Part shown: positions 14,745 through 36,504 of the stretch, piece by piece | Layout: each line of letters starts with the position of its first letter | Position numbering within the stretch: position 1 is the first letter of the stretch | Assembly: GCF_007197995.1 (NCBI RefSeq) | Contig: NZ_VKKH01000002.1 | Span: forward strand, 1 to 64,000 | Reading direction: 5' to 3' | Length of the DNA: 64,000 nucleotides | Source: Aliiglaciecola sp. M165 | Lineage (GTDB): Bacteria > Pseudomonadota > Gammaproteobacteria > Enterobacterales > Alteromonadaceae | Notes under the pieces: model-generated | Databases searched by the model: none | The model's input: the letters and a program-made list of their open reading frames with translations, nothing else | What the model was told of the DNA's origin: nothing | Made by a program: the position numbers and the translations under genes

Positions 14745-16028
14745 TTACGAATCAACAGACAGTTGACTGTTAGAGGATGTAGAACTCGATTCATTCTCCA
14801 CTGCATACTTGTAAGCCGTTAGCGACGAAAGCAATATGACAAACAGAAAATGGCTGAATTCCTGGTGACGAAGAATAATATGCTGCATGAGTGTCCAGAC
14901 AAAATAAACCGTAACGAACAAAAACAGGCATTTAGAGGTTTTTTCCAATCCTGAATAGTTCATCGCGGTAACGACTAGCCTTACCAACTTAAAATAAACA
15001 AATAGAGCTATCCCAAAGCCGACCATTCCCAATTGCAGCAGCGTTTCAAACCAACCATTGTGCATGCTCATTGGCCCCCACGTCAGAATGTAGCGAATGT
15101 ATTCGCCTCCCATACCACCATCGTATTTCCAAAACGAATTGTAACCAAAACCCAATAGCGGTTTCTGCATCACCGAGTCTAAACCCAACGCCCATAGCTC
15201 AGTTCTTCCGGTTAAGGTCGGGTCTTTACCTAATAACATCAAGAAGTACTCATAGGTAAACATGATGAACACCGTTACCATCAAAATAATCATGACAACA
15301 AAAAAGGAATTAACCATGATTTTATCGCGGTCACCATAAAAAACGGGGGAAAACCGCACGAGTAAGGGCAACAATAAAATGAGCACTAATGCAGTAGCAG
15401 ACCCATTCCCCAACAATAGAATAGTGGCAATAATCAGAGATAAAATGCTCGTCGCTTTTTTCTCAAAAAACGCAAAGTTTAAACAGAAAAAATAGACCAG
15501 AATTTGCCCCAGTCTGTTTTTTTCAGGGAAAACACCTCGAAATGCATTTTCTCCGACGTAAACAGAAATGCCGTATTCTGGCAGTAAAATGACAAACAGA
15601 AAGGACAATATAATGATTAGCCGAAAGACATAAAAAATTTGCTTGAGAATAAATTCGATAGAATAGGTGTATCCCACAACGATGGCAAAACAGCTCAACA
15701 AAACAAGTTGCAAAGAACTATACAGCGACAAGCTTGGGAGTGCCGACCAGCTGAAAGATATTACAGCTAGCCCTAAGAGCGTCAAAAATGCTAAATTTTG
15801 TTCAAAAAAATGTCGGATTTTTCGAAAGTATACAACCGTGATCACCGCGCAAGATAAATATATGGGTAACCACAGTATCATGCGCAGTTGGCTGTTCCCC
15901 TCTTCGAGCTGTTCCCTTACAGAGGCTCCAGATATTAAGAAATCCACAACAGCGCCGGTCGACAAAAAAAGCGACACGACAAAGGTTAAATATATCAGTT
16001 TCCTAAAACTACTGGATAAATCGAGCAT
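14745..16028 (-). CDS. O-antigen ligase/polymerase family membrane protein (Wzy-like)
   Basis: A 427-residue protein with about 10-12 hydrophobic segments and the conserved large-loop motifs of the PF04932 family: FPEKNRLGQ, GRTELWALG and a GFGYNSFW segment followed by HNGW. It is the last gene of the 24605-14745 operon and overlaps the transferase gene upstream by 20 bases. In this context it most likely polymerises the repeat unit delivered by the flippase of the same operon. A ligase role cannot be excluded. A Ser-rich tail ends the protein. Confidence 0.85.
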   Translation of the reverse strand: MLDLSSSFRKLIYLTFVVSLFLSTGAVVDFLISGASVREQLEEGNSQLRMILWLPIYLSCAVITVVYFRKIRHFFEQNLAFLTLLGLAVISFSWSALPSLSLYSSLQLVLLSCFAIVVGYTYSIEFILKQIFYVFRLIIILSFLFVILLPEYGISVYVGENAFRGVFPEKNRLGQILVYFFCLNFAFFEKKATSILSLIIATILLLGNGSATALVLILLLPLLVRFSPVFYGDRDKIMVNSFFVVMIILMVTVFIMFTYEYFLMLLGKDPTLTGRTELWALGLDSVMQKPLLGFGYNSFWKYDGGMGGEYIRYILTWGPMSMHNGWFETLLQLGMVGFGIALFVYFKLVRLVVTAMNYSGLEKTSKCLFLFVTVYFVWTLMQHIILRHQEFSHFLFVILLSSLTAYKYAVENESSSTSSNSQLSVDS

Positions 16029-16719
16029 ATATTACTTTAATAAAAAATATTGGAATTCCTAACACATACCTCTGAAACAAACGTCTAGGTTCATTTATAA
16101 GTCGATAAAACCATTCTAACCCGTTATCACGGAAAAACGCTGGAGCACGATTAAAACGCCCTGCCAAAAAATCGAAAATAGCTCCGCCATTAACGATTAA
16201 GAGATCTTGTTGAAAATTGTCTTTTAAATACATAGCAAACAATTCCTGTTTGGGCATGCCCATCCCAAGAATAACAATATCCGGCGCATGTTTCTCAACA
16301 AATCTTAACATTGTTGGATTGCTGCCAAACCCATCCATATAACCGATAACGTTGATATTTTGATTCTTACACACCTCTACACTTTCAGAAATGTAAGGCT
16401 CTTGGGTACCGATAAATACCACTCGCTTATTTGACAGCCTGGCAAGAATTAGTGGGATTAGGTCTGTGCCATTCAAGTTAGCGCCTGCGGCTCTAGAAAA
16501 ACACTTGAGTAAAATTTTTGTACCGATCCCATCTCTCAAAAGTAGATCTGAATTCAACAGCGCATGCTCAAAATCCGGAGACTTGGTTGACATATTGCAG
16601 GCATGGGCATTGACGAATGACACAATGTTAACGCCGGCGTTTTTAGCCATAGCCTCAATTTCATCAAGTGCCTGAGTCGACGTATCAAATACATGAATAT
16701 TTTGCGCCAAGTCTTTCAT
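16009..16719 (-). CDS. WecG/TagA/CpsF-family glycosyltransferase
   Basis: A 236-residue GT26 enzyme. Family motifs are clear: FVNAHACNMS, a D-R-DG segment (LLLRDGIGT), LGMGMPKQE near 150, and NGGAIFDFLAGRFNRAP near 177-193 followed by GLEWFYRL. These enzymes add N-acetylmannosaminuronic acid, N-acetylmannosamine or glucose to a lipid-linked sugar at the inner membrane. It overlaps the GT2 gene upstream by four bases (ATGA). It probably adds the second sugar of the repeat unit after the VpsL-like priming transferase at 38382; this order is inferred. Confidence 0.9.
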   Translation of the reverse strand: MKDLAQNIHVFDTSTQALDEIEAMAKNAGVNIVSFVNAHACNMSTKSPDFEHALLNSDLLLRDGIGTKILLKCFSRAAGANLNGTDLIPLILARLSNKRVVFIGTQEPYISESVEVCKNQNINVIGYMDGFGSNPTMLRFVEKHAPDIVILGMGMPKQELFAMYLKDNFQQDLLIVNGGAIFDFLAGRFNRAPAFFRDNGLEWFYRLINEPRRLFQRYVLGIPIFFIKVIYARFIQ

Positions 16720-17648
16720 CTCTTCACCGCGCCTCGTATTGCAGTTATAACTTTGTCCCCAATTACACCTTTAAATGTCATCCACAAAATAGCTTTTTTA
16801 GACATTTCACTTTGAATCAATGCGCGATAAACGCAGGCAAGCGCATAACGGATGTCTTGGTAAAAGTAATAAGGTATAACATAGCGTAAATAGAAGCAGG
16901 CCATATCCTTGCGAGCTAAATCAGATGAAACCAGGTCAATAAAAGTAGTAGCTTGGTTGTATGCTTTATTTTGACTCAATCTTCCCTGACTCGACTCATC
17001 ATTCCAAACGACTAGCGTCTCATCCACGAACACGATTTGCTCAGCGCTATTAAACCCATGGATAAAATACAGAAAATCTTCGTATTGACTTAATGATTCA
17101 TCAAATTTAATTGATTTGGCCAAGTCGCTGCTTAGAAAAAACGCACTGACCTGAGCAAAATGCCCATGTACAAACAAATAGTTCTCGCCAGAAGCAAATT
17201 GCTCAATATTTGCTTTAGGCACAATTTCTTCATAACCATCTCTCAAAACTCGCGTTTTGCTCATGCAGAAAGTAGATTTTTGCTGAACTAAACACGCGTC
17301 AACACAACGTTCCAGCTTAGTGTCATACCACTGATCATCTGAGTCGAGAAAGGCTATGAATTGCCCCTTTGCTGCTCGCACGCCTTGATTTCGTGAATAG
17401 GAAACGCCGCTATTTTCTTTGTTGCGTAAAACTTCAAAAGGAAAATTTATAAACAAATCTAATTGGGATAAGGTGTTTGATAAAGGTACGGTAGAATAAT
17501 CATCGACAAATATCACCTCAAAGTGCCGATAAGTCTGCTGATTAAGGCTTTTAATCGCACCTGTAATTTCTTCTTCTCGGTTGTATACAGGAATAACAAC
17601 TGATACTAATGGTAGTTGCTCAGCGTCGGCAGTTACGTGAGAATGCAT
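16716..17648 (-). CDS. Family 2 glycosyltransferase
   Basis: The open frame extends upstream to 17765, but ATG at 17648 is preferred: it has a GGA ribosome site and begins just before the conserved core VSVVIPVYNREE. The 310-residue product has the GT-A signature DDYS and the DXD-like motif LDSDDQW near residue 105-111. No TM segment is clear until the C-terminal amphipathic region. It overlaps the SGNH gene by 29 bases. It likely transfers one sugar of the repeat unit in the cytoplasm. Confidence 0.88.
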   Translation of the reverse strand: MHSHVTADAEQLPLVSVVIPVYNREEEITGAIKSLNQQTYRHFEVIFVDDYSTVPLSNTLSQLDLFINFPFEVLRNKENSGVSYSRNQGVRAAKGQFIAFLDSDDQWYDTKLERCVDACLVQQKSTFCMSKTRVLRDGYEEIVPKANIEQFASGENYLFVHGHFAQVSAFFLSSDLAKSIKFDESLSQYEDFLYFIHGFNSAEQIVFVDETLVVWNDESSQGRLSQNKAYNQATTFIDLVSSDLARKDMACFYLRYVIPYYFYQDIRYALACVYRALIQSEMSKKAILWMTFKGVIGDKVITAIRGAVKR

Positions 17649-18357
17649 AGTGTTTTTCCATTTCTTTAAACCAAACTGATGCCATTTTATTCTGACCTCG
17701 TATGTTAGGATGGACCCAATCAAGGGTGTCAGAATTTTCCAAATTAGGGCGCTCTGTCCATCCAATATTGTGTTGCACTGGAAAGACTCGCATACCTCGC
17801 CCTTGTGCCCAGGTGATTGCTTGTTGCAACGCGCTTCTTACACCATCAATGTTCCCATAGTTTTGGTTAAGTAAAGATACAAATATCAGAATGTTAGGGT
17901 TAAGTGTTCGCAGTTCTTCCATTATCTGTTTCAACGGCGCCACAACGTCAACCTGAAAAGTATCCGATTTTCGATCATTTGTGCCAATATGCAGTAAAAC
18001 AATATCTGCAGCTTTCCATTGATTTTGCTTGTGCTTTATTTTGGTTAACAACCCTTTGGTTGTAATCCCGTAATATCCCTCATGATCTCGATCAAATTTC
18101 AAACCTTTGTATTTGGGCCATATAAACCCAGCTTTATGTGGGTGATTTCGTGTTCCGACAAAATCGAAACAGATATGCTCATCAACTAACAATTGGAACA
18201 AAGAATATCGATAACTGAATTCATTTGGCTTCTTACCTCCTTGAGTGATCGAGTCACCTAGCATCAAGATATTAACGTTATCAGCCCATGCAGGATTGAC
18301 AAAACACAAACAAATGACGCCTAGACCTACAATTTTTGGTAAATGTTTTCTAAACAT
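17620..18357 (-). CDS. Secreted SGNH/GDSL-family esterase
   Basis: A 245-residue protein with a signal peptide (cleavage after AWA, ~residue 25). It has the block I motif LGDSITQGG (Ser nucleophile), block III GTND, and the block V DWVHP with Asp and His of the triad, so it appears catalytically complete. SGNH proteins in polysaccharide operons usually remove or transfer O-acyl groups. With the acyltransferase gene of the same operon it suggests control of O-acylation of the polymer in the periplasm. It overlaps GT4 upstream by 31 bases. Confidence 0.85.
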   Translation of the reverse strand: MFRKHLPKIVGLGVICLCFVNPAWADNVNILMLGDSITQGGKKPNEFSYRYSLFQLLVDEHICFDFVGTRNHPHKAGFIWPKYKGLKFDRDHEGYYGITTKGLLTKIKHKQNQWKAADIVLLHIGTNDRKSDTFQVDVVAPLKQIMEELRTLNPNILIFVSLLNQNYGNIDGVRSALQQAITWAQGRGMRVFPVQHNIGWTERPNLENSDTLDWVHPNIRGQNKMASVWFKEMEKHYAFSRNCRR

Positions 18358-19379
18358 GACATGTAGTTTTCAATTGAGAATTGACGCTCATAGGTCTGGG
18401 TGGCGTTGTCCACAAGTTGCTGCTGCAACTCGCTATCAGACAACAAACGAAGTATTGCTTCAGCAAGAGAATCGGCACTGCCAACATCGACAAACAGGCA
18501 TTCTTTTTCATGAGTAAAAACTTCGCCGATAGAGCCAACAGGAGTGCAAATCACTGGCACACCTTGCGCCATTGCCTCGAGAATGACCATTGGCAACCCC
18601 TCATCATAAGAGGGAAGGACAAGTGCATGAGACTGGTACATGATTGATAGGGCTTTGTCACGGGCCAACCAGCCGTGAAAATGGCACAAGTGGTCAACAC
18701 CGAGAGCCTTAGCCTTCAGGGCATACTTCTCGGTGTCACCGCCACCGAGAAAATCAACACGCACATCCAAGGAGTTCTTAACCTTGGCAATGGCTTCAAG
18801 CATGATCACAACGCCTTTGCGTTCAGACAGGTTAGCAATCATAGACAGCGACATCGCCGAACTTTTTCCGTCGGCCACAACCTTTCGTGGCACGGCGTTA
18901 TACAGAATTTCTATAGGCGCATGATTTGGCACCGACTCAATAATAAATCTACGCCATTTTTCTCCCAACACGAGGTTACAATCAGTACGAGTGATGCAAT
19001 ATTCCGTGATGCGGCGCTTTAGAGGACTAGCGCCTTCGTAAAACGGAATTAACTCAGCCCCATGGTGATGCAGAATAGTCTTTACCTTAAAACCTCTCGC
19101 TAATGCAATAAAAGCAGCCTTGCGCACAAAACTGAATCGCTCAGACACGTTGATATGCAGTAAAGTGGGCTGTTTAGAAAATAATAACTCACTGAATACA
19201 CCCACCAGTGCTTTAAAGAAGAATAAAAATGACAAAGCGAAGCCCACTTCTCCTCTGGAATCAAATACTCTTACCTCATCGGAACTGCTGTTTTCAATGT
19301 AATCTTTAATGTTTTTGGTGACCGTACCCATGCCACCACCAAATTTGTCGCCACCTGGTGAGACTAATAGAATTTTCAC
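18327..19379 (-). CDS. Family 4 glycosyltransferase
   Basis: A 350-residue GT-B enzyme. The N-terminal PGGDKFGGGMG glycine-rich loop, the central LSERKG motif, HFHGW, and the C-terminal EGLPMVILEAMAQGVPV (E-x7-E) nucleotide-sugar site are all present. It likely transfers one sugar of the exopolysaccharide repeat unit using a retaining mechanism; donor unknown. It overlaps the sulfotransferase upstream by four bases, and is embedded in the operon. Confidence 0.9.
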   Translation of the reverse strand: MKILLVSPGGDKFGGGMGTVTKNIKDYIENSSSDEVRVFDSRGEVGFALSFLFFFKALVGVFSELLFSKQPTLLHINVSERFSFVRKAAFIALARGFKVKTILHHHGAELIPFYEGASPLKRRITEYCITRTDCNLVLGEKWRRFIIESVPNHAPIEILYNAVPRKVVADGKSSAMSLSMIANLSERKGVVIMLEAIAKVKNSLDVRVDFLGGGDTEKYALKAKALGVDHLCHFHGWLARDKALSIMYQSHALVLPSYDEGLPMVILEAMAQGVPVICTPVGSIGEVFTHEKECLFVDVGSADSLAEAILRLLSDSELQQQLVDNATQTYERQFSIENYMSCLENIYQKL

Positions 19380-20119
19380 TTTACGTACTCCCTAAACACA
19401 CTATGACTTAGGCGAGAATTGATTTCGTCAAAATTCTTGATCGCACTGTACTTATTAGACCGACTTGTCTTTTTCCATTTGGTAGATTTTGCATCAAAGA
19501 TGACTAGCGAACGTGAAAAATACTGAGTCAGTGCATCTTGAATCAAAGAGATATTGCTCACTAATTCCTCATAACTGAAATAGTAATAGTGTTTGGAATA
19601 CCATTTTACCAACGGTGGGCAAATGATTTGTTTTATCTTCTCTTGCATCATTAAGCGATAGACGGTTTGGTAAGGAAGAGAAAACTCTTTTACCTGACTG
19701 TCTCCTGTGGAGTGGTAAACCCCTGTATAGCGGGCAATTGATTTGGAAAGCGCGATTTCAAAAATGTTGATTCGTTCAACATTGACGACCAATACGTTTG
19801 GGGCACTCAACAATTTACGTAAACGAGGCGCCCTCCTAACTTGATCATACATAAGTTTCAATACGGTCGTTTTATTTGGTTCAGCTAACACCTCGCTAAC
19901 ATAAGACATGGGCGACTTGTCTTGCTTGGCTTCGCAATACTCTAAATAAAACATATTAGGCCGTAGTGCGGGGTCGCCCTTAAACTGATCTGACCGAATC
20001 TCTCTAAACACCTCGCCGTAGACTCGAAAAGTTGGTTCTTGCGACAACACCTGCATTAACCACGTCGTACCGCTGCGCTGAGTTCCGATTATCACGATCG
20101 TATCAATGATATCCTTCAT
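19376..20119 (-). CDS. Sulfotransferase (third of the operon)
   Basis: ATG at 20119 is chosen since it overlaps the preceding stop (ATGA) and begins just before the conserved core. The 247-residue protein carries the 5'-phosphosulfate loop IIGTQRSGTTW near residues 9-19 and a GEVFRE motif shared with carbohydrate sulfotransferases. PAPS-dependent sulfation of a sugar hydroxyl is the expected reaction. The 3'-phosphate-binding segment is less clear. It is cotranscribed with another sulfotransferase immediately upstream. Confidence 0.8.
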   Translation of the reverse strand: MKDIIDTIVIIGTQRSGTTWLMQVLSQEPTFRVYGEVFREIRSDQFKGDPALRPNMFYLEYCEAKQDKSPMSYVSEVLAEPNKTTVLKLMYDQVRRAPRLRKLLSAPNVLVVNVERINIFEIALSKSIARYTGVYHSTGDSQVKEFSLPYQTVYRLMMQEKIKQIICPPLVKWYSKHYYYFSYEELVSNISLIQDALTQYFSRSLVIFDAKSTKWKKTSRSNKYSAIKNFDEINSRLSHSVFREYVK

Positions 20120-20961
20120 TTTAATTCGGTTTCCTTCTCCCAAGGCAGTGCATCGATATTGAGCAAGGCTTTTAGCTCATCCATTTGAGGTGCTAGCGAC
20201 GCTTGTAAATGTGTTCTAGTTTCCTCTTTCATGGGTGCCACAAGTTCACTGATATGTACTTTATTTTTGTTGTACACTGTGCCGACTAGCTTTGATTCCT
20301 TGAGTTGATTAAGTGCTCCTTTTAGTTCCAGTTTTCTCAACACATCACCACCTAATTCAAACGCCTTACCAACCACTTTATTTTTATTCTGTACGCTTGC
20401 GTTGACCGCATTAACCTCGACTAAATCAAGTGGTTCGATTTCAAAAAATTGGCACATCTCATCACTTACCTTTTGCGGGTCGCGTTTCACATCTTCCTGG
20501 AAGACAATGTGCATTTTTTCTTTCGGAAAATATTGCTGCCATTTTTTAATATGGACTGCGTACTGAGACTGTTGCAAGTACAATGGGTTGTTCTCAAACG
20601 CGTTTTCAAACACAGTATTTTTGCCACTTATATTGCCTGCACGTACTTCATGTAAATGATTTGAGTACATTCGCTTAATAGGGTCGCGTAATGACAAGAT
20701 AATTTTAGTTTCAGGGTTATAGGTGTGGACTCGTTCAGGAACATCAGAATTATAAAAATAAGAAGGAGAGATTTCACCTGTCAACGCTCTACTATGATCA
20801 CTGAAATTCGATTCGTACCACTGATATCCTCTGTCATAATAGTAAGAGAAGAAATCAAGCTCTTTGGTCTGAGATACGCATACTTGCTCACTGTTTTTTA
20901 GTACTTCATAAATCCATGAAGACGCGCACTTTTGAGCGCCTATTCCGATAAAATTAATCAT
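20116..20961 (-). CDS. Sulfotransferase, heparan-sulfate-type (second of the operon)
   Basis: ATG at 20961 overlaps the flippase stop (ATGA) and is preferred to a start 15 bases earlier. The 281-residue product has the PAPS 5'-loop GIGAQKCASSW (residues 5-15) and the 3'-phosphate motif LSLRDPIKRMYSNH near 80-95, both typical of the Sulfotransfer_1 fold acting on glycans. Together with two other sulfotransferases in this operon it is strong evidence that the exported polymer is sulfated. Confidence 0.88.
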   Translation of the reverse strand: MINFIGIGAQKCASSWIYEVLKNSEQVCVSQTKELDFFSYYYDRGYQWYESNFSDHSRALTGEISPSYFYNSDVPERVHTYNPETKIILSLRDPIKRMYSNHLHEVRAGNISGKNTVFENAFENNPLYLQQSQYAVHIKKWQQYFPKEKMHIVFQEDVKRDPQKVSDEMCQFFEIEPLDLVEVNAVNASVQNKNKVVGKAFELGGDVLRKLELKGALNQLKESKLVGTVYNKNKVHISELVAPMKEETRTHLQASLAPQMDELKALLNIDALPWEKETELK

Positions 20962-22172
20962 AATGCGTAATCCCATTTCCTACGAAACAATATCATTCCA
21001 ATTACGGTAGCTAGAGCACTTACAAATGCACTACTCGCCACCATTAAAAAAGCGTTTTGGGTTGCGCCAAAATAACCGTATGCGACGATCAAAAGCACCA
21101 ACAAGGCTAAACTGATGAACAAAATCAAAGTTTGCTCACCGATGGCACCTACAAACCTAAAAATGGGTTGATAAACAGCCATCATTAGCTGTCCAAGCCC
21201 GAGAACATAAATGAAATCAAACACAACAGGATCAAGTTTTTCATCAAACCATCCTAACAACGTAGCTTCGAGCAATCTCAAAGATAACAGAATCATCAGA
21301 ACCGGAACCGTTCCCAGCAACATACAACGAAACAACAAAGCCTGATTAAGCCTTTGATGTTGGCTAAATTGGGTAATTAATCGAGGTAAATAAAGTGAAA
21401 TACTCACCTCTTTAAACATAGCCAAATTAGAAACAACTAAGATCGCCATACCTAAATATCCAAGTAATTGTTGCTCGAAATAAAAGCCAAAAATGATCAC
21501 AAGCCCTTGTAACAAAAAAATCGGCAAAAAGCCTGACAGCCACATTGATGATGAAACAGATAACCAATGCCGCACTGGCCACTTCTGCTTAGATGGCCTG
21601 GCATTGCCTGCGTAAGCAATTAGTATCGCCACGGCAGAAGCAAAAGCGATGCCGTTCACCCACATAAACTGAGTCAAAGACGAAGTTAATGTAATCTCGA
21701 AAAATAGGTAGGTGACCCCAACGCTGACAGAAAATCCAAAGACAATAAAGAACGCAAACAGGAACCCTAATAAAGGCTTGCCGATGGCTTTACAATAGAC
21801 GGTAAAAAACACATTCATCAAACCAAAAGCCACCAGATATTGGATAAAGTCCCCTATGGGATGCGTAAACTTTTGTAAGAATGCGGTTCCGAAGAATCCA
21901 AACAATGCATAGAAAACTGCACCACCTATAAGAATAAAAACCACACAAAACCTAGTGTAATGGGATTTAAGCGCATAGGATTGATTGGCGAATTTAAACG
22001 CAGAGGTTTGTAACCCAAATAACAACAGGGTACTGGCAACCAACACAAAACTTCTAACGAAGGTGTACTCACCAAAATCTGCAACAACTAAAGTGGAGGC
22101 CAATAAAATGGACGTAACAAACGCCAACGCCTTAGTGCTCAGTTCAATTAGGTAGGGAGCTGATTTCTTCAT
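20958..22172 (-). CDS. Polysaccharide flippase (Wzx-like, MOP superfamily)
   Basis: A 404-residue membrane protein with about 12 hydrophobic segments. It begins with the MOP pattern (APYLIELSTKALAFVTSILLA) and contains FGEYTFVRSF typical of Wzx proteins near residue 33. It probably flips the undecaprenyl-linked repeat unit across the inner membrane for polymerisation by the Wzy-like protein at 14745. The start overlaps the GH10 stop by four bases. Sequence of flippases diverges fast, so the specificity cannot be inferred. Confidence 0.82.
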   Translation of the reverse strand: MKKSAPYLIELSTKALAFVTSILLASTLVVADFGEYTFVRSFVLVASTLLLFGLQTSAFKFANQSYALKSHYTRFCVVFILIGGAVFYALFGFFGTAFLQKFTHPIGDFIQYLVAFGLMNVFFTVYCKAIGKPLLGFLFAFFIVFGFSVSVGVTYLFFEITLTSSLTQFMWVNGIAFASAVAILIAYAGNARPSKQKWPVRHWLSVSSSMWLSGFLPIFLLQGLVIIFGFYFEQQLLGYLGMAILVVSNLAMFKEVSISLYLPRLITQFSQHQRLNQALLFRCMLLGTVPVLMILLSLRLLEATLLGWFDEKLDPVVFDFIYVLGLGQLMMAVYQPIFRFVGAIGEQTLILFISLALLVLLIVAYGYFGATQNAFLMVASSAFVSALATVIGMILFRRKWDYAL

Positions 22173-23254
22173 AAGCTCGCCGATATACCTTCATAAGCAG
22201 GACAATTATTCAACGCTGAAACGATAGCATGACCCAAAATATCGTGCGAATAGTCGCTCGCAAATGGTGCAGATCCAAAATTTACCTGCTCCCACAAATC
22301 ATCAGACATTGAATAAGAGTACGCGTCAACCAGTCCCCAGCAAACGAGGCTGTTCACATTGGCAAACGACAAGGTATCTTCTAGATACCGCTGCAAGTTT
22401 TTCGCAACATAAGAGGCATCATTATTTAGTTGCTTTTTAGCGCCGTGGGAAACATCCAACTCAGTAATCTTGACTTGAAAACCTAAATCTTTGCAGTTTT
22501 TACAAAACGCTAACCAATCTTTTTGATCATAGTCTTCTTGACTGAATTTTAAGTGACTTTGGATACCGAGAGTCGGTATTGCGATATCTTTTTCGCGCAT
22601 GTGCTCCAACATATTAAGCACAGCCTTTCGTTTTTTCCTAAAAAATCTATCTTTGTACGGGCCTACCCATTCGTTGACCACCCACTCTTTACCAGCACCG
22701 ATACGGTTAGCCATTTCGGTAAAACCTTTAACATAATTGATGCCCATACGTTGACTCAAAGCATCTTTACGCAACCACCCACCTACCCCATCGTCTTCAC
22801 TAATCTCATTAAACAAATCCCAAGATGTTACGTTTTCATAACGAGCAACGAGAGTTTTAATATGCTTATGAATTTGTTTTTCAACATCGCATCCACAAGA
22901 AGCGATCCAGTTAGTCATACTTTTCTCGAATATGAGTGCATGACCTCGCATTTCCAGATGATTAAATCGACAAAAATCGTAAAGTCGATCTGCCGCACGG
23001 AAATTGTAAGACTGATTTGCTTGTACAATGGCCTTCCATTTAAGTTGATTTTCGGGAGTCAATACCTTGCAGTGGTGCAATACAAACCGACGAAACTTAG
23101 CGTTTCGATACAATTCGTTCCCAACAGATGAGCCAAATGAAATTCCCTTTTTTTCTGCCAGTGCTTTTATCCCTTGAGATTCAAAAAGATCTAGGAACGG
23201 CGTGGCCATGAGCCCACCCATCATTTTTAACATCGTTCGGCGATCAATATTCAT
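22169..23254 (-). CDS. GH10-family glycoside hydrolase (xylanase-like) in the polysaccharide operon
   Basis: A 361-residue protein with an N-terminal Tat-like signal (DRRTMLKMMGG). GH10 landmarks are present: LTPENQLKW near 65-73, RGHALIFE near 103-110, acid/base Glu in WDLFNE (E150) and nucleophile Glu in ITELDV (E265). The usual RGHTLVWH motif is changed at its end (IFE for VWH), so the -1 subsite differs from classical xylanases. Embedded by four-base overlaps between the acyltransferase and flippase genes, it probably trims, releases or processes the exported polymer in the periplasm rather than digesting plant xylan. Confidence 0.85.
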   Translation of the reverse strand: MNIDRRTMLKMMGGLMATPFLDLFESQGIKALAEKKGISFGSSVGNELYRNAKFRRFVLHHCKVLTPENQLKWKAIVQANQSYNFRAADRLYDFCRFNHLEMRGHALIFEKSMTNWIASCGCDVEKQIHKHIKTLVARYENVTSWDLFNEISEDDGVGGWLRKDALSQRMGINYVKGFTEMANRIGAGKEWVVNEWVGPYKDRFFRKKRKAVLNMLEHMREKDIAIPTLGIQSHLKFSQEDYDQKDWLAFCKNCKDLGFQVKITELDVSHGAKKQLNNDASYVAKNLQRYLEDTLSFANVNSLVCWGLVDAYSYSMSDDLWEQVNFGSAPFASDYSHDILGHAIVSALNNCPAYEGISASL

Positions 23255-23844
23255 CTCTGCTTAATCTGCCCTTGAGAACCTACTATAAGCACATCTTGTT
23301 CCTCGAATACCTTAGTTATCACAGTACCTGCACCCACTAAGGTTTTGTCAGCAATCTGAGCGCCTGGACAAAAAATTGATGATGTTCCTACGTAGCAATT
23401 GTTTCCAATCGCGATGTCATGATCTTGAACACCATTTCCATGGGTCCAAAATTGGCTACTGATTCCCGCGATTACAGAGTCTTTGCCGATTTGAATTTTC
23501 CCTGCAACGTCAAAATGATGGCCATTTGTGATCAGCACGCCTTGTTCGACGACCAACTCGCGTTTGTAGCCTTCTCGCTTGGCTACCCATTTGCCACAAT
23601 TAAATTTATTTCGAAAGCCAATCTTCACTCCTTTGCCTATCTTCACCTTCATTGGGCCGGTAAAGTAATTAAATTTTCCTAGACGACTGTCTGTGATTTC
23701 AAATTTGTTAATATTTATAATTGCAAGAAATCCTACATGGGAATTTTTAATCTGATACCCCAGAAGGGTGTTGTAAAAAAAACAACGTAACTTATTAAGT
23801 GGTAAAACAGATATTAAACATGCCAAAACCAGTCTCATAATCAT
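23251..23844 (-). CDS. Left-handed beta-helix acyltransferase (hexapeptide repeat)
   Basis: A 197-residue protein. After an N-terminal hydrophobic stretch come hexapeptide-type repeats (VKIGKGVKIG, IGKDSVIAG, IGNNCYVG, IADKTLVGAGTVI) forming a left-handed helix; TNGHHFD and FWTHGNG hold candidate catalytic His residues. These enzymes transfer acetyl or other acyl groups from CoA to sugars. It overlaps both neighbours by four bases, so it is part of the polysaccharide operon and probably O-acetylates the repeat unit. Confidence 0.85.
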   Translation of the reverse strand: MIMRLVLACLISVLPLNKLRCFFYNTLLGYQIKNSHVGFLAIININKFEITDSRLGKFNYFTGPMKVKIGKGVKIGFRNKFNCGKWVAKREGYKRELVVEQGVLITNGHHFDVAGKIQIGKDSVIAGISSQFWTHGNGVQDHDIAIGNNCYVGTSSIFCPGAQIADKTLVGAGTVITKVFEEQDVLIVGSQGQIKQR

Positions 23845-24605
23845 CCCAAATACTTTTCAAACGGTGTGTTTTTCAAAGCCAGTACTAACTCTTTATGGTT
23901 ATCTATCCGGTCAGACAGATCGTTAGATAGGATCTTTTTATGTCGATCTGTAACTTTTATGGTGCCCAAACCTAGAAATTCGAACATACCATCTATCAGC
24001 GCTTGCTTTTGATTGGTCATGAACAAGTCCTCATAGGCGATTGAGTAAACGCGTTCAGCATTTAACTGTGATGCTAGCTGAGTTTGATAGGCCATTTCTT
24101 CTTCGTATACAGATAATGTTCGCAACAAGTCTATACAATCAATTGATAATTTGTTTTTTTGCGCGCCATCTTTTGACATTACCGTTCCAGATTTTTGCAT
24201 TGCACACAATGAGATATAGCGATCAAGTTGATTTCGTCTGTACAAATGAATAACGGCGACGTCGGTGTTGTCTTTGAGCCAACTGCCAAGATTCAAGCGT
24301 TGAAAATTGATTCCAAAGTCTTTGATACCAATGTGGGTAACGTATCGACGTTTTTTTGGTGAGAATGATGCTCTATCTTTAGTTAGATAAAATAGTTGTG
24401 AGATGTAGAAAAAAAAGCGACTTGTGTAAATGAAGTCAAGATAGTTTTCTTCAGTACTGATGTTAAATAGCGTTTTAAATTTGCGTTTTTTACTCCAAGG
24501 CCCAAGCACTTCACCAAAATTGTATACACTTTGATGTTGATTGAGGACATCAACCAAATAATTACTGCCACTTCTTCCATTGGTTAGCACAATAAATTTT
24601 TTCAC
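23841..24605 (-). CDS. Sulfotransferase, first gene of the polysaccharide operon
   Basis: A 254-residue protein with the PAPS-binding 5'-loop LTNGRSGSNYL at residues 7-17 and HLYRRNQLDRYIS near 140-152 as the likely 3'-phosphate segment, close to the Stf0/LPS sulfotransferase type. It begins the 11-gene minus-strand operon. The product is cytoplasmic, acting on nucleotide- or lipid-linked sugars. Its presence with two more sulfotransferases of different subtypes suggests sulfation at several positions. Confidence 0.85.
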   Translation of the reverse strand: MKKFIVLTNGRSGSNYLVDVLNQHQSVYNFGEVLGPWSKKRKFKTLFNISTEENYLDFIYTSRFFFYISQLFYLTKDRASFSPKKRRYVTHIGIKDFGINFQRLNLGSWLKDNTDVAVIHLYRRNQLDRYISLCAMQKSGTVMSKDGAQKNKLSIDCIDLLRTLSVYEEEMAYQTQLASQLNAERVYSIAYEDLFMTNQKQALIDGMFEFLGLGTIKVTDRHKKILSNDLSDRIDNHKELVLALKNTPFEKYLG

Positions 24606-25040
24606 AAATTACCCTATTAATGGTTAGATCCAATAGACGAGCAAAGAAACATATTTACCGTCCTCGACCTGCAATCAAGGTATGAATCAGCGAATCCAAT
24701 TCTCTCCCAATTACTAAGCAAACATCAAACCAAAGTTTTATTTGATTATAGAAAAAAGATTATTTCGTCAAGATTAGGTCAATCCCAACAATTCGTTTTG
24801 TTTTTAAGTCGCTAGTTGATGGAATTGGTATAACAGGTTGTTGTTCAAAAAAACTAAATTAAGTAACACAGAAGTCAATTCGAGGGGTTCACAAGTTCTC
24901 TGTGCGGCAGTTAGAGATATTATTTTTAATCAGTGAAGTTTCTATCACCAAGTAGCCAAGGCGTTATTTTTATGCACCGTTTTATGCCAAGTGCGCACCA
25001 ACATTGCTCAAATCTTTGTAGCAGGGTAAAACGTTATAAA
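24606..25040. other. Intergenic region upstream of the polysaccharide operon
   Basis: About 435 bases without a convincing ORF on either strand, A+T-rich. It holds the promoter region of the minus-strand 24605-14745 operon, including a candidate sigma-54 element at 24717-24732. Beyond that I see no repeat or RNA structure. Confidence 0.6.
24717..24732 (-). promoter_or_regulatory. Candidate sigma-54 -24/-12 element before the polysaccharide operon
   Basis: On the minus strand the sequence TGGTTTGATGTTTGCT has the GG and GC dinucleotides at the exact 12-base offset and a good TTTGCT -12 block, but a weak -24 block (TGGTTT instead of TGGCAC). The predicted start is near 24706, about 100 bases before ATG 24605. 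Confidence 0.4.
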
Positions 25041-25067
25041 AAAGCCCGGTAACTCACCGGGCTTTTG
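25041..25067 (-). terminator. Intrinsic terminator of the PEP-CTERM gene
   Basis: An 11-bp perfect stem (25041-25051 with 25057-25067) with a five-base loop is followed on the minus strand by a T run. It lies about 24 bases past the stop of the gene at 25091. Confidence 0.92.
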
Positions 25068-25090
25068 CAAAAAAAGTGACTTACCTAATT

Positions 25091-25741: not shown

Positions 25742-26232
25742 TTATACTACCTTAAAAAAATGGTTACCTACCCAAAATAAGCAACATCCATGCCAATCAC
25801 TGGACATTGAATTTCCCCATATATTTCAACAACTTGAGATGTAAATTAGTTGTTAACAGACATTCACAGTTTGCGATCGTAAAAGAATCCGACAGATCTT
25901 TTTGCTCAATTATCAGTCAACATCTATAAAACAAGTACACAAAACGAAGCACTAACCGTGCCAGTATATTCATTTGTGACATATCCAGCAAAGCCAAAAA
26001 CGCTCGATAAATAAGTCACGAAAACTCAAAGCAACTAGAAAAGACGCAGACCAGCAGACACAAAATGAATACTCAATTCTGACGTAAATACAGCTCTGAT
26101 TCAAACTTGTTTGATTATGCTTATTTTTTTGAGGTTTGGCAAAGAAGATAATGATCTGATAGTCTCACGAGCAATCTGGTTTAGCGTTTCACAGCTTCAC
26201 ACATACCAATTTAGGTTCGAGCACAAGCTTTG
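25742..26232. other. Divergent intergenic region, PEP-CTERM gene / lapG
   Basis: About 490 bases with no supported gene. The left edge holds the sigma-54 element for the PEP-CTERM gene (25780-25795). The rest is A+T-rich; I see no clear sigma-54 element for the rightward lapG-lapD genes and no strong repeats. Confidence 0.6.
25780..25795 (-). promoter_or_regulatory. Sigma-54 promoter of the PEP-CTERM gene
   Basis: Minus-strand TGGCATGGATGTTGCT is a near-consensus -24/-12 element (consensus TGGCAC-N5-TTGCW) with GG and GC at the correct offset. The predicted start at about 25769 gives a 27-base leader to ATG 25741. PEP-CTERM genes in other bacteria are known to be under RpoN and the PrsK/PrsR system, so the match is meaningful. 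Confidence 0.8.
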
Positions 26233-26886
26233 ATGGTACGACATTTAACTTTTATTAGCGTTTTATTAGTGGTTATGCTGATTTGTTTTGACTTGTTAGC
26301 TGATATCCCATTTCAAATAAGTGCAAAACAGTATGCAAGAATCGCCGAAGAATATGGCGATTCAGCCGTAGATAGAGTTAAAAGTTGGCAGGAGATTATT
26401 GCAGAATCAAGTAATCTAGATGAAGATGAAAAGCTCTACGAAATCAATAGATTTTTTAACCAATTAGCATTCGTGGACGATATTGAGCACTGGGGAAAAG
26501 AGGATTATTGGGCGACCCCTATCGAATTTCTTGCTACCGATGCCGGTGACTGCGAAGATTTCACCATCGCAAAGTACTACAGCTTAAGAGCACTGGGTAT
26601 ACCAGAAGAAAAAATGCGCTTGATGTACGTTAAAGCACTCAGACTTAACCAAGCGCATATGGTCCTAGCTTACTTCTCTTCACCAGATGCCGTGCCTTTA
26701 ATACTCGATAACTTAAACCCCAGAATTATGCCCGCCCATCGTCGCACAGATTTATTGCCCGTCTATAGTTTCAATGGTGAGGGCTTGTGGCTTGCTAAAG
26801 CGCAGGGAAGAGGCAGGCAAGTGCAATCGGGCGGAAACAATAGCTTGTGGGCCGACTTAACAGAACGCATTGAACAAGGCAGATAA
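26233..26886 (+). CDS. lapG: LapG-type periplasmic cysteine protease (BTLCP family)
   Basis: The 217-residue product (ATG 26233 preferred to the adjacent TTG) has an N-terminal membrane/signal segment and the transglutaminase-like catalytic triad: Cys107 in DAGDCEDF, His142 in NQAHMVL and Asp159 in LILDN. Spacing between these residues is close to that in LapG proteins, and the DCEDF motif is diagnostic. LapG cleaves a surface adhesin near its N terminus unless held by LapD. The lapD-type gene follows 19 bases later, supporting the assignment. No LapA-type adhesin is in the window. Confidence 0.9.
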   Translation: MVRHLTFISVLLVVMLICFDLLADIPFQISAKQYARIAEEYGDSAVDRVKSWQEIIAESSNLDEDEKLYEINRFFNQLAFVDDIEHWGKEDYWATPIEFLATDAGDCEDFTIAKYYSLRALGIPEEKMRLMYVKALRLNQAHMVLAYFSSPDAVPLILDNLNPRIMPAHRRTDLLPVYSFNGEGLWLAKAQGRGRQVQSGGNNSLWADLTERIEQGR

Positions 26887-26905
26887 TATTTTGGAGCGAA
26901 TCACT

Positions 26906-28834
26906 ATGCCACTCTCTCGACAACTTGGATTAAGTTTATTTTTCGTCTTGTTAGTCGTTTTCATAGGAGTGCTATGGCTAAACGTCAGCAGCACTCGGGA
27001 TTATACGCAACAACAACTTGCCTCTCATGCTCAAGACACGGCTACTTCACTCGGTCTGTCAATTACTCCATATATTGGAAATAATGAGGACTTGCCAATT
27101 ATTGAAACTATGGTTAATGCAATTTTCGACCGCGGTTATTATTTGACTATTTCCTTGGTAAATAATGAAGGCAAAGTTCTGTTGGAAAAACATAACCCGA
27201 GCAAGCCTCAAAACATTCCCCAGTGGTTTATTGATATTTTCCCCCTTGAACCACCTAAGTCGACTACTGAAATTAACTCCGGCTGGACCATCGCAGGCGT
27301 ATTGGAAGTGACTAGCCATCCAGGCTTTGGGTACCAGCAATTGTGGCAAAACGCGTTGAGAGCTTTAACCATTATCTCGGCAGTGTTTTTTATCGCATTG
27401 TTAGGCGTATTGCTCGCAGTCAGAGTGATAACTCAGCCGCTGCTGCAAGTTGCACAAAATGCCAAGAGTATTAGTGAAAGAAACTTTGTGACGATTACCG
27501 ACATACCTAAGACACCTGAGCTCAACGTACTCGTTAAGGCCTTCAATAGCATGTCTAGTCGATTAAAACGTTCATTCGACAGTTTAACCGAGCAGGCCGA
27601 GCGTTATGGCGTATACGCCTATCAGGATTCATTAACAGGCGTTGGCAATCGACGTTCATTTTTAATGACCCTGGAAAAGTATTTAGCTGACAAAGAAAAT
27701 CATCCTGATGGTTATCTAATATTGATCAGACTCTCAAGTTTGGGACAAGTTAATAGCGAATTTGGCGCAAGTATCGCAGACCAGTACATCAAAACCACGC
27801 TTCAGGAAATCCAACAACACGTAACCCAATCGGACTTCTCTTTTGACATATTTAGAATAAACGGCGCCGATTTTGTGCTCCTGATAGAAGACATGGATGC
27901 AGAGTGTTGTAAAACCTTTACAAAACAACTCAGTGAAGGATTTGAGGGACAAACTAAGTCGGAATATCAATCGGGTACAGCACATATAGGTGTGTGTCAC
28001 TATTTAGCGTCTGACAACATTGGCGAAATACTCGAACGAGCTGACAGCGCACTTGCCAGCGCACAAGGTAATTCTTCGCGATGGGAGATCGCCAGCAATC
28101 TTGATTTAATTAAAAGCAACTCTGCATGGCGGGCTCAACTGCAGGACATTGTTCAAAAAGGCGACGTTGACTTCGTTGTGCAACCTTTGATGAATTGGCA
28201 GCAAAATGTCGTTTATCAGGAGCTATTTGCCCGATTCAAAGATTCCGATACTCAATCACATATACCCATGGGACAGTTAGTCCCTGCTGCGTTCAGACTA
28301 AATTTTGTGACACAAATCGACAAGTTGGTTATTACATCCGCATTGAGCAGATTAGTAGAATTTGAACACTCAATCGGAATCAATATTTCAAGAAATTCAC
28401 TCAGGGATATTCAGTTTCAAAATTGGTTAGAGTCAGAGCTCCCGAAATCCCCTCAACAATCCGGCAAAATAGTTTTGGAGATCCCGGAGCGCGCCCTAGT
28501 CGACGAAGTGTCTCAAATTAGTGACTTTTTACACAGGCTTCAGCAACGTGGCATTCGAATCACCGTGGAACGTTTTGGTGCACAAATTATAGGCTTTCGG
28601 CATTTACGAGCAATCAAGCCAAACTTCTTGAAGATTGATGGACAATTTGTGCGCAACATTCATAAGGAGCCTGATAATCAGTTGTTCGTTCGCTCTTTGA
28701 TTGGTATCGCTGATGGACTGAATATATCTGTGATTGCAGAAATGGTTGAATCAGAAGAAGAGGCGCAATTTTTGCATAATTTAGGAATTACAATCGTACA
28801 AGGTTTTCATTTAGCTAAACCAAAAGCGATATAA
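26906..28834 (+). CDS. lapD: LapD-type inner-membrane c-di-GMP receptor, degenerate GGDEF-EAL
   Basis: ATG 26906 is chosen because of a GGAG ribosome site nine bases upstream; in-frame TTG 26870 overlaps lapG. The 642-residue protein has TM1 (~9-29), a periplasmic LapD_MoxY_N domain (~30-150) with GWTIAG, TM2 (~153-173), HAMP (~174-227), a GGDEF domain whose active motif reads NGADF (319-323), and an EAL domain whose signature reads ELF (439-441). Both enzymatic motifs are degenerate, as in LapD, which binds c-di-GMP with the EAL domain and sequesters LapG. Likely couples c-di-GMP to adhesin release. Confidence 0.9.
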   Translation: MPLSRQLGLSLFFVLLVVFIGVLWLNVSSTRDYTQQQLASHAQDTATSLGLSITPYIGNNEDLPIIETMVNAIFDRGYYLTISLVNNEGKVLLEKHNPSKPQNIPQWFIDIFPLEPPKSTTEINSGWTIAGVLEVTSHPGFGYQQLWQNALRALTIISAVFFIALLGVLLAVRVITQPLLQVAQNAKSISERNFVTITDIPKTPELNVLVKAFNSMSSRLKRSFDSLTEQAERYGVYAYQDSLTGVGNRRSFLMTLEKYLADKENHPDGYLILIRLSSLGQVNSEFGASIADQYIKTTLQEIQQHVTQSDFSFDIFRINGADFVLLIEDMDAECCKTFTKQLSEGFEGQTKSEYQSGTAHIGVCHYLASDNIGEILERADSALASAQGNSSRWEIASNLDLIKSNSAWRAQLQDIVQKGDVDFVVQPLMNWQQNVVYQELFARFKDSDTQSHIPMGQLVPAAFRLNFVTQIDKLVITSALSRLVEFEHSIGINISRNSLRDIQFQNWLESELPKSPQQSGKIVLEIPERALVDEVSQISDFLHRLQQRGIRITVERFGAQIIGFRHLRAIKPNFLKIDGQFVRNIHKEPDNQLFVRSLIGIADGLNISVIAEMVESEEEAQFLHNLGITIVQGFHLAKPKAI

Positions 28835-28944
28835 TCAGCAAGTAACCAATACCTGTGTATAATCACCGATACGTTAGTTTATTTGTGTATGCATGCAGAC
28901 CTTTTTACAATAGGGCATAACTGATTTTTTTGGAGGCGTTTACC

Positions 28945-30009
28945 ATGCGCAATGTAGCATTAATATCCCTACTCGTGGCTAGCGGGGTGGTAGTTGGCTG
29001 CAGCAAACAACCGTCCACGGTGCAGAATGGACAATCGACGCCTGAGAAAGAAGAGGTTGAAATCGTTGAAGAAAAGACTGAACAAGACCAAGTGTTGCTT
29101 ACTGCAAATACGCTAGAGGTTGCTGAAAACCTGCCTGAAGAGGAGGTTGTTAGCGATGTAGTGGCCCCACCGAGCGCAGTCGCTGAAAAAGCAACTCGTA
29201 CAGCCTCTTTAGGCTCTTTGGCAAATGTGCAAGTAACTGAATCATCTGATAACGCTGAAAACGCAGCTCAGATAAGTCCAGCAAACCAAGCCAAAAGCCA
29301 AGCACTCGTTGCAGAACACAGCACTCTAAACGATGTCAATGAACAAGCTGAGCAAAAGCAACCTGTCAAATTATCAGACACTCATATTGCGGCTTCTAAC
29401 ACTAATACCCAGGATCTCAACGATGCGGTGTCTCAACCTACAGACATTGCTAAGCAAACTGACGTTGATTTAAGTGAATACGGATTTTATGGTGACCCAA
29501 CACAACCTGGCTATCAAATTCAACAGCAGATATTCACTTTGGTAGAGCAAGGTATGTCTATCGTTGACGCGTCTAAAGTTGTAATGAACGAGATTAAAAG
29601 TGATGACAACTCCATCATCGGCGGAGAATCCAGACGTTTACTAATAGAAGTAGGTTCACTATCAGACGCATTTATTGAAGACATAGCTTTAGTCACCAAC
29701 TTATCTGACGCAACCCGTGTCGCCATTGCAGAATTTCCCGACAGCGTAGAAAACATAGTAACGATGGGTGTTACACTTTATCCGGATTATGCTCAAGATG
29801 TGATCAATGCGGCGGCGTTGAGTGGTGAAATTTCTGATGCGGATGCGCTATTACTAGCAATCGCTGCTGGCGCTGATCCTACAACGGTTTCAACTGCAAC
29901 GGCATCAGGAGCTGCAGCAGGGGCGATCGTAGCGACGCCTACACCATTGGGTCCCGGGATAGGAGCAGGTGGTTCAGGTGGCGGAGACACCACTGCATCG
30001 ACGAATTAA
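28945..30009 (+). CDS. Lipoprotein with acidic linker and unrecognised C-terminal domain
   Basis: ATG 28945 has a GGAGG site eight bases upstream. The 354-residue product has a lipobox (VVGC, Cys19), then a long acidic and Ala/Gln-rich low-complexity region (~25-175), then a helical domain ~180-322, and a Gly-rich tail. Residues ~253-322 match residues ~103-174 of the next gene product, sharing patterns such as IAxFP, a central helix pair, AxxAGxDPxxVSxATASG. I do not recognise the domain. A hairpin terminator follows. It lies between lapD and a polymerase gene, so a biofilm or polysaccharide role is possible but unproven. Confidence 0.8.
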   Translation: MRNVALISLLVASGVVVGCSKQPSTVQNGQSTPEKEEVEIVEEKTEQDQVLLTANTLEVAENLPEEEVVSDVVAPPSAVAEKATRTASLGSLANVQVTESSDNAENAAQISPANQAKSQALVAEHSTLNDVNEQAEQKQPVKLSDTHIAASNTNTQDLNDAVSQPTDIAKQTDVDLSEYGFYGDPTQPGYQIQQQIFTLVEQGMSIVDASKVVMNEIKSDDNSIIGGESRRLLIEVGSLSDAFIEDIALVTNLSDATRVAIAEFPDSVENIVTMGVTLYPDYAQDVINAAALSGEISDADALLLAIAAGADPTTVSTATASGAAAGAIVATPTPLGPGIGAGGSGGGDTTASTN

Positions 30010-30066: not shown

Positions 30067-30143
30067 TTTCAACTCTTGAAGCCCTCTAACGAACCATCTA
30101 TGATTCGTCCATTCAAAACGTGTTATTCCTTTGGCAGTGCATA

Positions 30144-30749
30144 ATGGGTAGAAGGTTTATTATTTGGCTCGCAATGGGCTTGATCAATATGGCAGTGATT
30201 GCTAACGCTCAACAGTCAGACTCCGCCGCTGTACGCAAAGATGCAATGGTTCCGTTATTCACTTGGCTTAGCGACAACAATGTACAGGTAAGCGATATTG
30301 ATATGTTGCTCAAAACGATATCAAACGCTCCTGAGCAAACTGAATTTGTTTTCGATGATAACCGAGTGTTTGTCTCAGCCATGCAACGGGAAATACTTGT
30401 GTCTCATCATGAACCATCACACTATGTACTCACTAGCTTGCAGTCAAATGCGATGACTCAAGATGTAATAAAGAACGCAATTGCGAAGTTCCCGCACTAC
30501 GCAGCACCCATTATTCAATTAACACTTTCTATGGCTCCTTCTGACGCACGTAACTTACTAGTCGCTTCAAGTATGACCGGAGTAGTTAGTTATGAAGAAG
30601 CATTAGAACAAGCCATCTTAGCCGGCGTCGACCCTAGCGAAGTTTCTGAGGCAACCGCTTCTGGGAAAAATGATGTAGAGGTATCAGTATTACCCTTAGG
30701 TGCTCAGATCACTAGAGAAGAACTTAAAGACACGTTGTTAAGCAATTAA
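30144..30749 (+). CDS. Secreted protein sharing its C-terminal domain with the preceding lipoprotein
   Basis: Start 30144 (ATG) is preferred to upstream GTG 30120 because it gives a compact signal peptide ending IANA; the ribosome site is weak either way. The 201-residue protein has helices throughout. Residues 103-174 correspond to residues 253-322 of the upstream protein, e.g. NAIAKFP, the ARNLLVASSMTG helix and the shared ATASG end. Not a known family to me. The polymerase gene begins 34 bases after its stop, suggesting co-transcription. Confidence 0.75.
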   Translation: MGRRFIIWLAMGLINMAVIANAQQSDSAAVRKDAMVPLFTWLSDNNVQVSDIDMLLKTISNAPEQTEFVFDDNRVFVSAMQREILVSHHEPSHYVLTSLQSNAMTQDVIKNAIAKFPHYAAPIIQLTLSMAPSDARNLLVASSMTGVVSYEEALEQAILAGVDPSEVSEATASGKNDVEVSVLPLGAQITREELKDTLLSN

Positions 30750-36489: not shown

Positions 36490-36504
36490 TTCAATCTCCA
36501 CTCA

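Follow-up and report, generated by a model that had tools for sequence, protein, structure and literature searches.

The first 64,000 nucleotides of contig NZ_VKKH01000002.1 from Aliiglaciecola sp. M165 (assembly GCF_007197995.1; this whole stretch is hereafter the window) carry eleven intact open reading frames (ORFs), all on the minus strand and running from position 24605 down to 14745, which an earlier note had described as an overlapping operon for a sulfated and acylated exopolysaccharide (EPS). Read in that direction, the genes encode a sulfotransferase with a GTG start (ST1, 23841..24605; PF00685, 23.2 bits against a cut-off of 22), a hexapeptide (LbH) acyl- or acetyltransferase (23251..23844; PF00132 Hexapep, 33.3 bits, cut-off 27, E 3e-8) that is WbbJ/WcaF-like yet far under the NCBIfam cut-offs, a GH10 glycosidase (22169..23254; PF00331, 184.8 bits, cut-off 22.1), a probable Wzx flippase with 12 hydrophobic segments and a weak Wzx profile match (20958..22172), a second sulfotransferase of the heparan 3-O-sulfotransferase type (ST2, 20116..20976; PF00685, 58.5 bits) and a third (ST3, 19376..20143, likely ATG start at 20119; PF13469, 32.6 bits, cut-off 27). 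These are followed by a GT4 glycosyltransferase (18327..19379; PF00534, 115.3 bits, cut-off 26.4, E 3e-33), an SGNH/GDSL hydrolase (17620..18357; PF13472, 48 bits, cut-off 32.9), a GT2 glycosyltransferase (16716..17765, likely ATG start at 17648; PF00535, 105.9 bits, cut-off 23.3, E 3e-30), a WecG/TagA/CpsF-type glycosyltransferase (16009..16719; PF03808, 140.2 bits, cut-off 27.4; TIGR00696, 89 against 69) and a putative Wzy_C polymerase with nine hydrophobic segments (14745..16028; PF04932, 51.1 bits, cut-off 31.7), the last belonging to what Pfam names the O-antigen ligase family and fitting either a polymerase or a ligase. Ten of the eleven products, including the three sulfotransferases, pass the curated Pfam cut-offs, so that the gene identities given in the earlier note stand apart from that of the flippase-like protein, which is weakly backed.

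The overlapping arrangement was borne out at these coordinates, with neighbours overlapping at all ten junctions. Seven junctions can be exactly four bases (six ATGA and one GTGA), those for ST2 and ST3 requiring internal ATG codons at 20961 and 20119, respectively, and the remaining three are longer, as the note had allowed: 31 bases between the GT4 and SGNH genes, 20 between the WecG-type and Wzy genes, and 29 between the SGNH and GT2 genes if the ATG at 17648 is used (146 with the longest TTG start). A reading of the sequence places the expected promoter in the intergenic region 24606..25090 (minus strand), and a terminator-like hairpin was seen by eye at 25038-25066, 3' of a PEP-CTERM gene, where the program's terminator list has no entry. 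Because promoter and terminator scans around the operon returned nothing above chance, its structure rests on the overlaps, from which co-transcription of the eleven genes is predicted; likewise, nothing convincing emerged when a shared promoter motif or ops element was sought upstream of the window operon and of 26 related cassettes described below.

The operon contains neither an initiator nor an exporter; both lie 6-15 kb upstream (30.8-39.8 kb), beyond a LapG-LapD pair, and a self-contained operon was accordingly rejected. The initiator is a WcaJ-type undecaprenyl-phosphate glucose phosphotransferase (38382..39821, plus strand; TIGR03023, 537 bits, cut-off 411), and the minus strand encodes a BBP2_2 outer-membrane beta-barrel (36505..37707; PF10082, 109 bits), a Wza-type outer-membrane polysaccharide exporter (OPX; 35956..36501; PF02563, 76 bits), a Wzc-type co-polymerase/BY-kinase (33678..35930; Wzz, GNVR and AAA_31 domains), a CpsB/CapC phosphatase (32953..33681; PF19567, 152.8 bits) and a VpsP family protein (32240..32962; NF038257, 183.6 bits, cut-off 125). 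On the plus strand follow a second Wzy_C protein, polymerase or ligase (30784..32172; PF04932, 71.7 bits), and a LapD-type receptor for cyclic di-GMP (c-di-GMP; 26870..28834; PF16448 (LapD_MoxY_N), GGDEF and EAL above cut-off, HAMP at 24 bits against 25) adjoining a LapG-type periplasmic protease (26230..26886; PF06035 (BTLCP), 56 bits) that scores 244 against the NF045674 equivalog cut-off of 320 and thus stays under the NCBI equivalog level. Of the parts of a Wzx/Wzy locus, the window as a whole holds an initiator, Wzy_C, a polysaccharide co-polymerase (PCP) and an OPX exporter.

Comparison with relatives separated this upstream block from the operon. The WcaJ, BBP2, Wza, Wzc, VpsP-like, second Wzy, LapD and LapG genes are syntenic in three relatives (G006, G012 and G002) at 40-71% identity, with only the CpsB match missing in G002, and the second Wzy_C is 43-58% identical in all three syntenic loci compared whereas the cassette Wzy varies. 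The same slot beyond lapG holds different glycan operons in these three, with 23-32% identity at most for some glycosyltransferase, WecG or Wzy genes: the G006 cassette includes pyruvyltransferase, MBOAT and beta-helix genes, and the 10 of its proteins that were scanned contained no sulfotransferase; that of G012 carries a hexapeptide gene together with sulfotransferases of PF03567 and PF13469, and that of G002 has one PF03567 gene. Because the block is syntenic while the operon beside lapG differs, we regard the eleven genes as probably the species-variable glycan cassette of a conserved Wzx/Wzy exopolysaccharide locus of the Alteromonadaceae that resembles the Vibrio polysaccharide (VPS) locus. 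The note's proposal of a dedicated sulfated polymer is thereby upheld in part, since sulfotransferases, glycosyltransferases, a polymerase and a flippase-like protein share one operon, with an OPX/PCP block nearby and an APS (adenosine 5'-phosphosulfate) kinase in the genome, and it is amended in that the operon is the variable cassette and not the complete locus.

At family scale, strong Wzc orthologues (E<=1e-220) were found in 61 of 395 genomes, counting that of the window itself, and Glaciecola, Paraglaciecola and Alteromonas are among the named genera that carry the block. Flanking loci could be anchored at lapG in 37 of the 61 (two of them, L058 and L060, via the gene lists of the three-relative comparison), and 26 of these showed five or more successive genes on one strand, the run being ended at any opposite-strand ORF of at least 150 aa; we call these runs sister cassettes. 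A local search detected sulfotransferases in 6 of these 26 (window not counted here or below), and a Pfam recheck of 10 more cassette proteins placed L112 and L115 above cut-off and L119 below it, which brings the count to at least 8 of the 26, and to 9 if the sub-threshold case is included. This is a lower bound, as the local search missed Pfam-detectable genes and not every gene was scanned singly. The cassette assigned to Paraglaciecola mesophila KMM 241 (L099), a culturable relative, is one that carries a sulfotransferase. PF03567 gave 93 matches in the 61 genomes, 35 of whose positions (picked by eye) fall inside the fetched flanks, which total 1.12 Mb, about 0.4% of the DNA. The enrichment does not count as separate evidence, because 12 of the positions are one orthologous gene and several are on the opposite strand. 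That orthologous gene lies outside the counted cassette runs of its 12 loci (L110, L113, L116-L118, L122, L123, L126-L130), and the window's own genome has zero PF03567 matches. As a separate observation, a protein with FAD_binding_4 and MurB_C, the domains of the peptidoglycan enzyme MurB, sits inside EPS runs at L091:10824-11792 and L101:5623-6612, with three members over the whole cassette protein set.

All three window sulfotransferases carry a P-loop-like motif near the N-terminus and then an R-x8-S or RDP..S motif (ST1, GRSGS at 10 and R123..S132; ST2, KCASS at 16 and RDPIKRMYS at 97; ST3, RSGTT at 23 and R124..S133), which we take to be the sites for the sulfate donor 3'-phosphoadenosine 5'-phosphosulfate (PAPS). 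In sequence searches of the PDB, ST2 best matched the heparan sulfate 3-O-sulfotransferase 1zrh (E 8e-17), ST1 reached E 0.38 only, with an LPS (lipopolysaccharide) sulfotransferase NodH entry, and ST3 had no match at E<=1; ST1 also had no match in plasmids. None of the three showed a membrane segment in a hydropathy scan, so sulfation would probably take place on the cytoplasmic lipid-linked unit. That these enzymes instead act on lipids, small molecules or proteins, and stand in the operon by chance or through co-regulation, we consider quite improbable: ST1 and ST3 fit their families weakly and lack close relatives of solved structure, and further PF00685/PF13469 genes lie elsewhere in the genome, yet three sulfotransferases share one overlapping operon, ST2 resembles polysaccharide sulfotransferases, and sulfotransferases recur in the sister cassettes as counted above. 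One of the genes outside the window, an 81-bit PF00685 sulfotransferase, lies within about 30 kb of a second tyrosine-kinase EPS-type match and an exosortase gene on contig C26 (267976-297625), possibly another polysaccharide locus with sulfation.

Taken together, the families argue for a likely sulfated and acylated Wzx/Wzy polymer, for which we propose a route whose order of steps, number of sugars, linkage and sulfate we infer from the observed families, synteny and motifs. WcaJ, named by its above-cut-off equivalog match, would place glucose-1-phosphate on undecaprenyl phosphate, and the WecG-type, GT4 and GT2 enzymes would extend this to a unit of about four sugars. The three probably cytoplasmic, PAPS-dependent sulfotransferases and the hexapeptide enzyme may then sulfate and acylate the lipid-linked unit, with their targets and place of action less secure than their families, after which Wzx would flip the unit, the cassette Wzy would polymerise it, and Wzc, Wza and BBP2 would export the product, as family and synteny suggest. 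In the periplasm, GH10 and SGNH might trim and de-acylate the polymer as its cognate enzymes, with beta-1,4 links that the WecG-type enzyme would form as a possible target of GH10, and the adjacent LapD-LapG pair suggests c-di-GMP control of matrix retention at the surface. The second Wzy_C may be a ligase or a partner polymerase, and this bears on the reading in which the cassette product is a sulfated O-antigen or a capsule linked to LPS, and the protein at 30784 is the ligase. One variable Wzy_C, and one conserved beside different cassettes, are what a polymerase/ligase pair would be expected to look like, and the NodH entry nearest to ST1 points the same way. We nevertheless judge this reading unlikely, as the block holds OPX (Wza), a Wzc-type kinase co-polymerase, a BBP2 porin and VpsP, a set that exports secreted polymers and capsules rather than LPS.

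The hydrolases of the operon retain their motifs. GH10 keeps its catalytic motifs (WDLFNE at 145-150 and TELD at 264-267, aligned with Xys1, 1nq6), and SGNH has GDS34, GTND125 and DWVH213 and matches 2vpt at E 7e-10; by eye, the GH10 N-terminus with its RR motif looks like a Tat-type signal and that of SGNH like a Sec-type signal peptide. A pattern scan of a genome contig collection found no close GH10 relatives, matches occur in 11 of 60 kin genomes (own included) with the others at 22-32% identity, and among 369 class genomes searched at E<=1e-26 there was one other, at 30%. Among the sister cassettes, 120 proteins gave 59 families, of which the 25 most frequent included no GH family, and the window's GH10, flippase, SGNH and ST1 had no blastp match to cassette-region proteins at E<=1e-3. 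The very long branch of GH10 in its tree (identity <=29% to all in the compared set), together with the lack of any close relative among the 60 kin or 369 class genomes searched, could suggest an acquired and silent cassette no longer making polymer. This seems to us very improbable, because all eleven frames are intact with tight overlaps and the GH10, SGNH and sulfotransferase motifs are kept.

GH10 genes were also found in polysaccharide settings elsewhere. By tblastn, 61 plasmid records matched, of which 19 were opened, mostly the top of the list and rhizobia and hence not a random sample. Six of the 15 annotated regions place GH10 amid flippase, Wzy, glycosyltransferase or export genes, and the other nine have sugar-use or unclear settings; three of the four unannotated regions (L206, L207 and L210) have at least three EPS marker matches nearby, making nine of the 19 opened records, in a marker scan that missed one annotated case (L211). 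These nine (L196, L198, L200, L201, L206-L208, L210, L211) are on Rhizobium, Neorhizobium, Methylosinus and Nostoc plasmids, and their GH10 genes are labelled endo-1,4-beta-xylanase where annotated. On the GH10 tree (L018 dropped beforehand; L206, L207 and L210 outside the tested group), a single clade of EPS-context GH10 was rejected (p-AU 1.5e-5), while the EPS-context label was clustered, with four changes, as few as which arose in 1 of 500 shuffles. As the label clusters but is not united, GH10 was more likely recruited into EPS loci repeatedly than inherited within one EPS clade.

Several observations weigh against the reading of a cassette for a sulfated Wzx/Wzy polymer. The flippase-like protein has no Pfam match and, aligned with a seven-protein Wzx profile of sister cassettes, is colinear at E 0.002 with an hhalign probability of only 13%, so that its assignment as Wzx is weak, and the conserved second Wzy_C leaves two candidates for the polymerase. 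ST1 and ST3 rest on weak profile matches, and a single-sequence structure model of ST1 was poor (predicted local distance difference test (pLDDT) score of 35) and was discarded. The hydropathy scan flagged no segment in GH10 or SGNH, whose export signals were seen by eye only. No sulfotransferase was found in 17 or 18 of the 26 sister cassettes, and sulfation is thus not the rule of the locus. PAPS synthesis genes, of which APS kinase was the one searched for, are not in the cluster, unlike in the Vibrio and Cobetia clusters discussed below; the strong APS kinase match is on contig C29, outside the window's contig, and PAPS genes within the cluster have been called a hallmark of sulfated polysaccharide clusters in the parts of the source covered (PMC11641403). 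The sulfate on the polymer is a prediction from sequence.

Beside lapD, the window encodes a secreted protein or lipoprotein with a LapG-like site, AAAG at 328-331 (28930..30009, plus strand), and a paralogue (30120..30749, plus strand) that lacks [TAP]AA[GV] and weakly matches the LapA retention module near its cleavage region (NF033682, 22.2 bits, cut-off 50). Relatives of the former (in L145-L189) are small, apparently secreted proteins with a helical domain and then a disordered tail ending in GGGDTTASTN or similar; the model of one (L145) has a mean pLDDT of 84, near 97 over the helical domain, and no known fold could be assigned, Foldseek giving nothing at E<=0.001 and a second structural comparison a best Z of 4.6. 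Of 36 full-length named loci, 27 of the 28 with lapD and lapG have a member of the family, and none of the 8 without lapG does. Among 33 members (32 relatives and the window copy, with one unrelated 694-aa row excluded), 26 have the motif [TAP]AA[GV] in their final 60 residues, against a mean of 5.2 and a maximum of 11 in shuffled tails with the last 18 residues removed, a comparison in which relatedness was not controlled. The NCBIfam LapA retention-module model matches 20 of 27 members at E<=0.1 (next models 1 each), the scores given being 18-22 bits against a cut-off of 50, over the site region. These features make the family a candidate set of LapG substrates, and several others speak against that: the AAAG of the window copy is shifted by three residues and a lipobox is present, the 30120 paralogue has no such motif and 7 of the 33 members have none near the tail, and by eye members mostly start with Sec-type signals. 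LapA is not known to start in this way.

In the parts of the literature covered, P. fluorescens LapA is cut just before AGPSAAGTGG and is no longer cleaved once both alanines there are changed (PMC3032545), the V. cholerae adhesins FrhA and CraA have a di-alanine motif at which LapG of that species cuts them (PMC6890996), and retention modules are named only in adhesins (PMC12153261). The BTLCP protease HvyA restrains the Caulobacter capsule (PMC4241560, seen in part) and so offers a precedent for such proteases in polysaccharide control. We put forward only tentatively, as an idea that is rather doubtful at present, that one conserved VPS-like export block takes whole glycan cassettes (sulfated, pyruvylated or other) and that c-di-GMP-fed LapD-LapG controls the locus through a small secreted 28930-family substrate, with the site between helical domain and Gly-rich tail, such that proteolysis would decide whether the polymer, and not a giant adhesin, is kept or released. 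Two other genes of the window stand outside this picture. The PEP-CTERM protein (25091-25741) between lapG and the operon has no match in 45 named loci at E<=1e-5 and distant matches near some cassettes, and an exosortase is encoded on contig C26, outside the window's contig; an LPD1-domain protein (PF18796), a domain often tied to mobile elements, is encoded at 46384-47175.

Among known systems, V. cholerae VPS is a c-di-GMP-linked biofilm polymer whose locus combines Wza, Wzc, a VpsP family protein and Wzx/Wzy logic. The window shares the first three (its VpsP protein by NF038257) and probably the Wzx/Wzy logic and the c-di-GMP link, and differs in having sulfotransferases, an exchangeable cassette and LapD-LapG within the locus. 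Our literature search, which covered titles and the starts of abstracts with few subscription journals, found nothing on the Alteromonadaceae locus, on those of its cassettes that bear sulfotransferases or on small substrates of LapG within EPS loci; the parts covered of two related papers, on Wza/Wzb/Wzc capsule loci in Alteromonadaceae (PMC12844025) and on EPS of differing composition from two A. stellipolaris strains (PMC6361997), make no mention of sulfotransferase. The note's further statement that gene sets for sulfated EPS are rarely described needs qualifying, as sets have been published, as far as the parts covered show, for synechan xss (PMC8205485), Vibrio sp. KMM 8419 (PMC11641403) and Cobetia marina KMM 1449 (PMC11766843). 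Synechan xss of Synechocystis PCC 6803 likewise pairs sulfotransferases from different subfamilies (two in synechan, three in the window) with glycosyltransferases, Wzx (a probable one in the window), Wzy and PCP in an EPS cluster of the Wzx/Wzy type, but it is a cyanobacterial plasmid cluster with eight glycosyltransferases and the regulators XssS/R/Q, and the parts covered show no GH10 or LapD/LapG. The Vibrio and Cobetia clusters also belong to marine Gammaproteobacteria and have sulfotransferases in a polysaccharide cluster, with chemistry known; in the parts covered, however, they encode ABC-transporter capsules, comprise about 80 and 70 genes and include the PAPS genes, whereas the window is of the Wzx/Wzy type with its PAPS supply elsewhere. 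Promonan prm of Sphingomonas sp. LM7 (PMC11340318) shares WcaJ, a beta-barrel porin, Wza, Wzz, a kinase, a WecG-type glycosyltransferase, Wzx (a probable one in the window), Wzy, GT2, GH10 (prmN) and an acyltransferase, and differs by an extra GH16 and, in the parts of its table covered, by having no sulfotransferase; deletion of prmN gave no colony phenotype in the part of that paper covered.

Our comparisons turn a single odd operon into a comparative system, in which dozens of related marine genomes pair one export block with varied polymer cassettes, and the polymers of some are predicted to carry sulfate. The operon offers three sulfotransferases of different types and a GH10 that may be the cognate polymer-cutting enzyme, and the locus offers a candidate LapG substrate inside an EPS locus. 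Set beside the systems above, this is a known kind, a predicted Wzx/Wzy sulfated EPS, in a new arrangement, in which a VPS-like block with LapD-LapG lies next to an exchangeable cassette.

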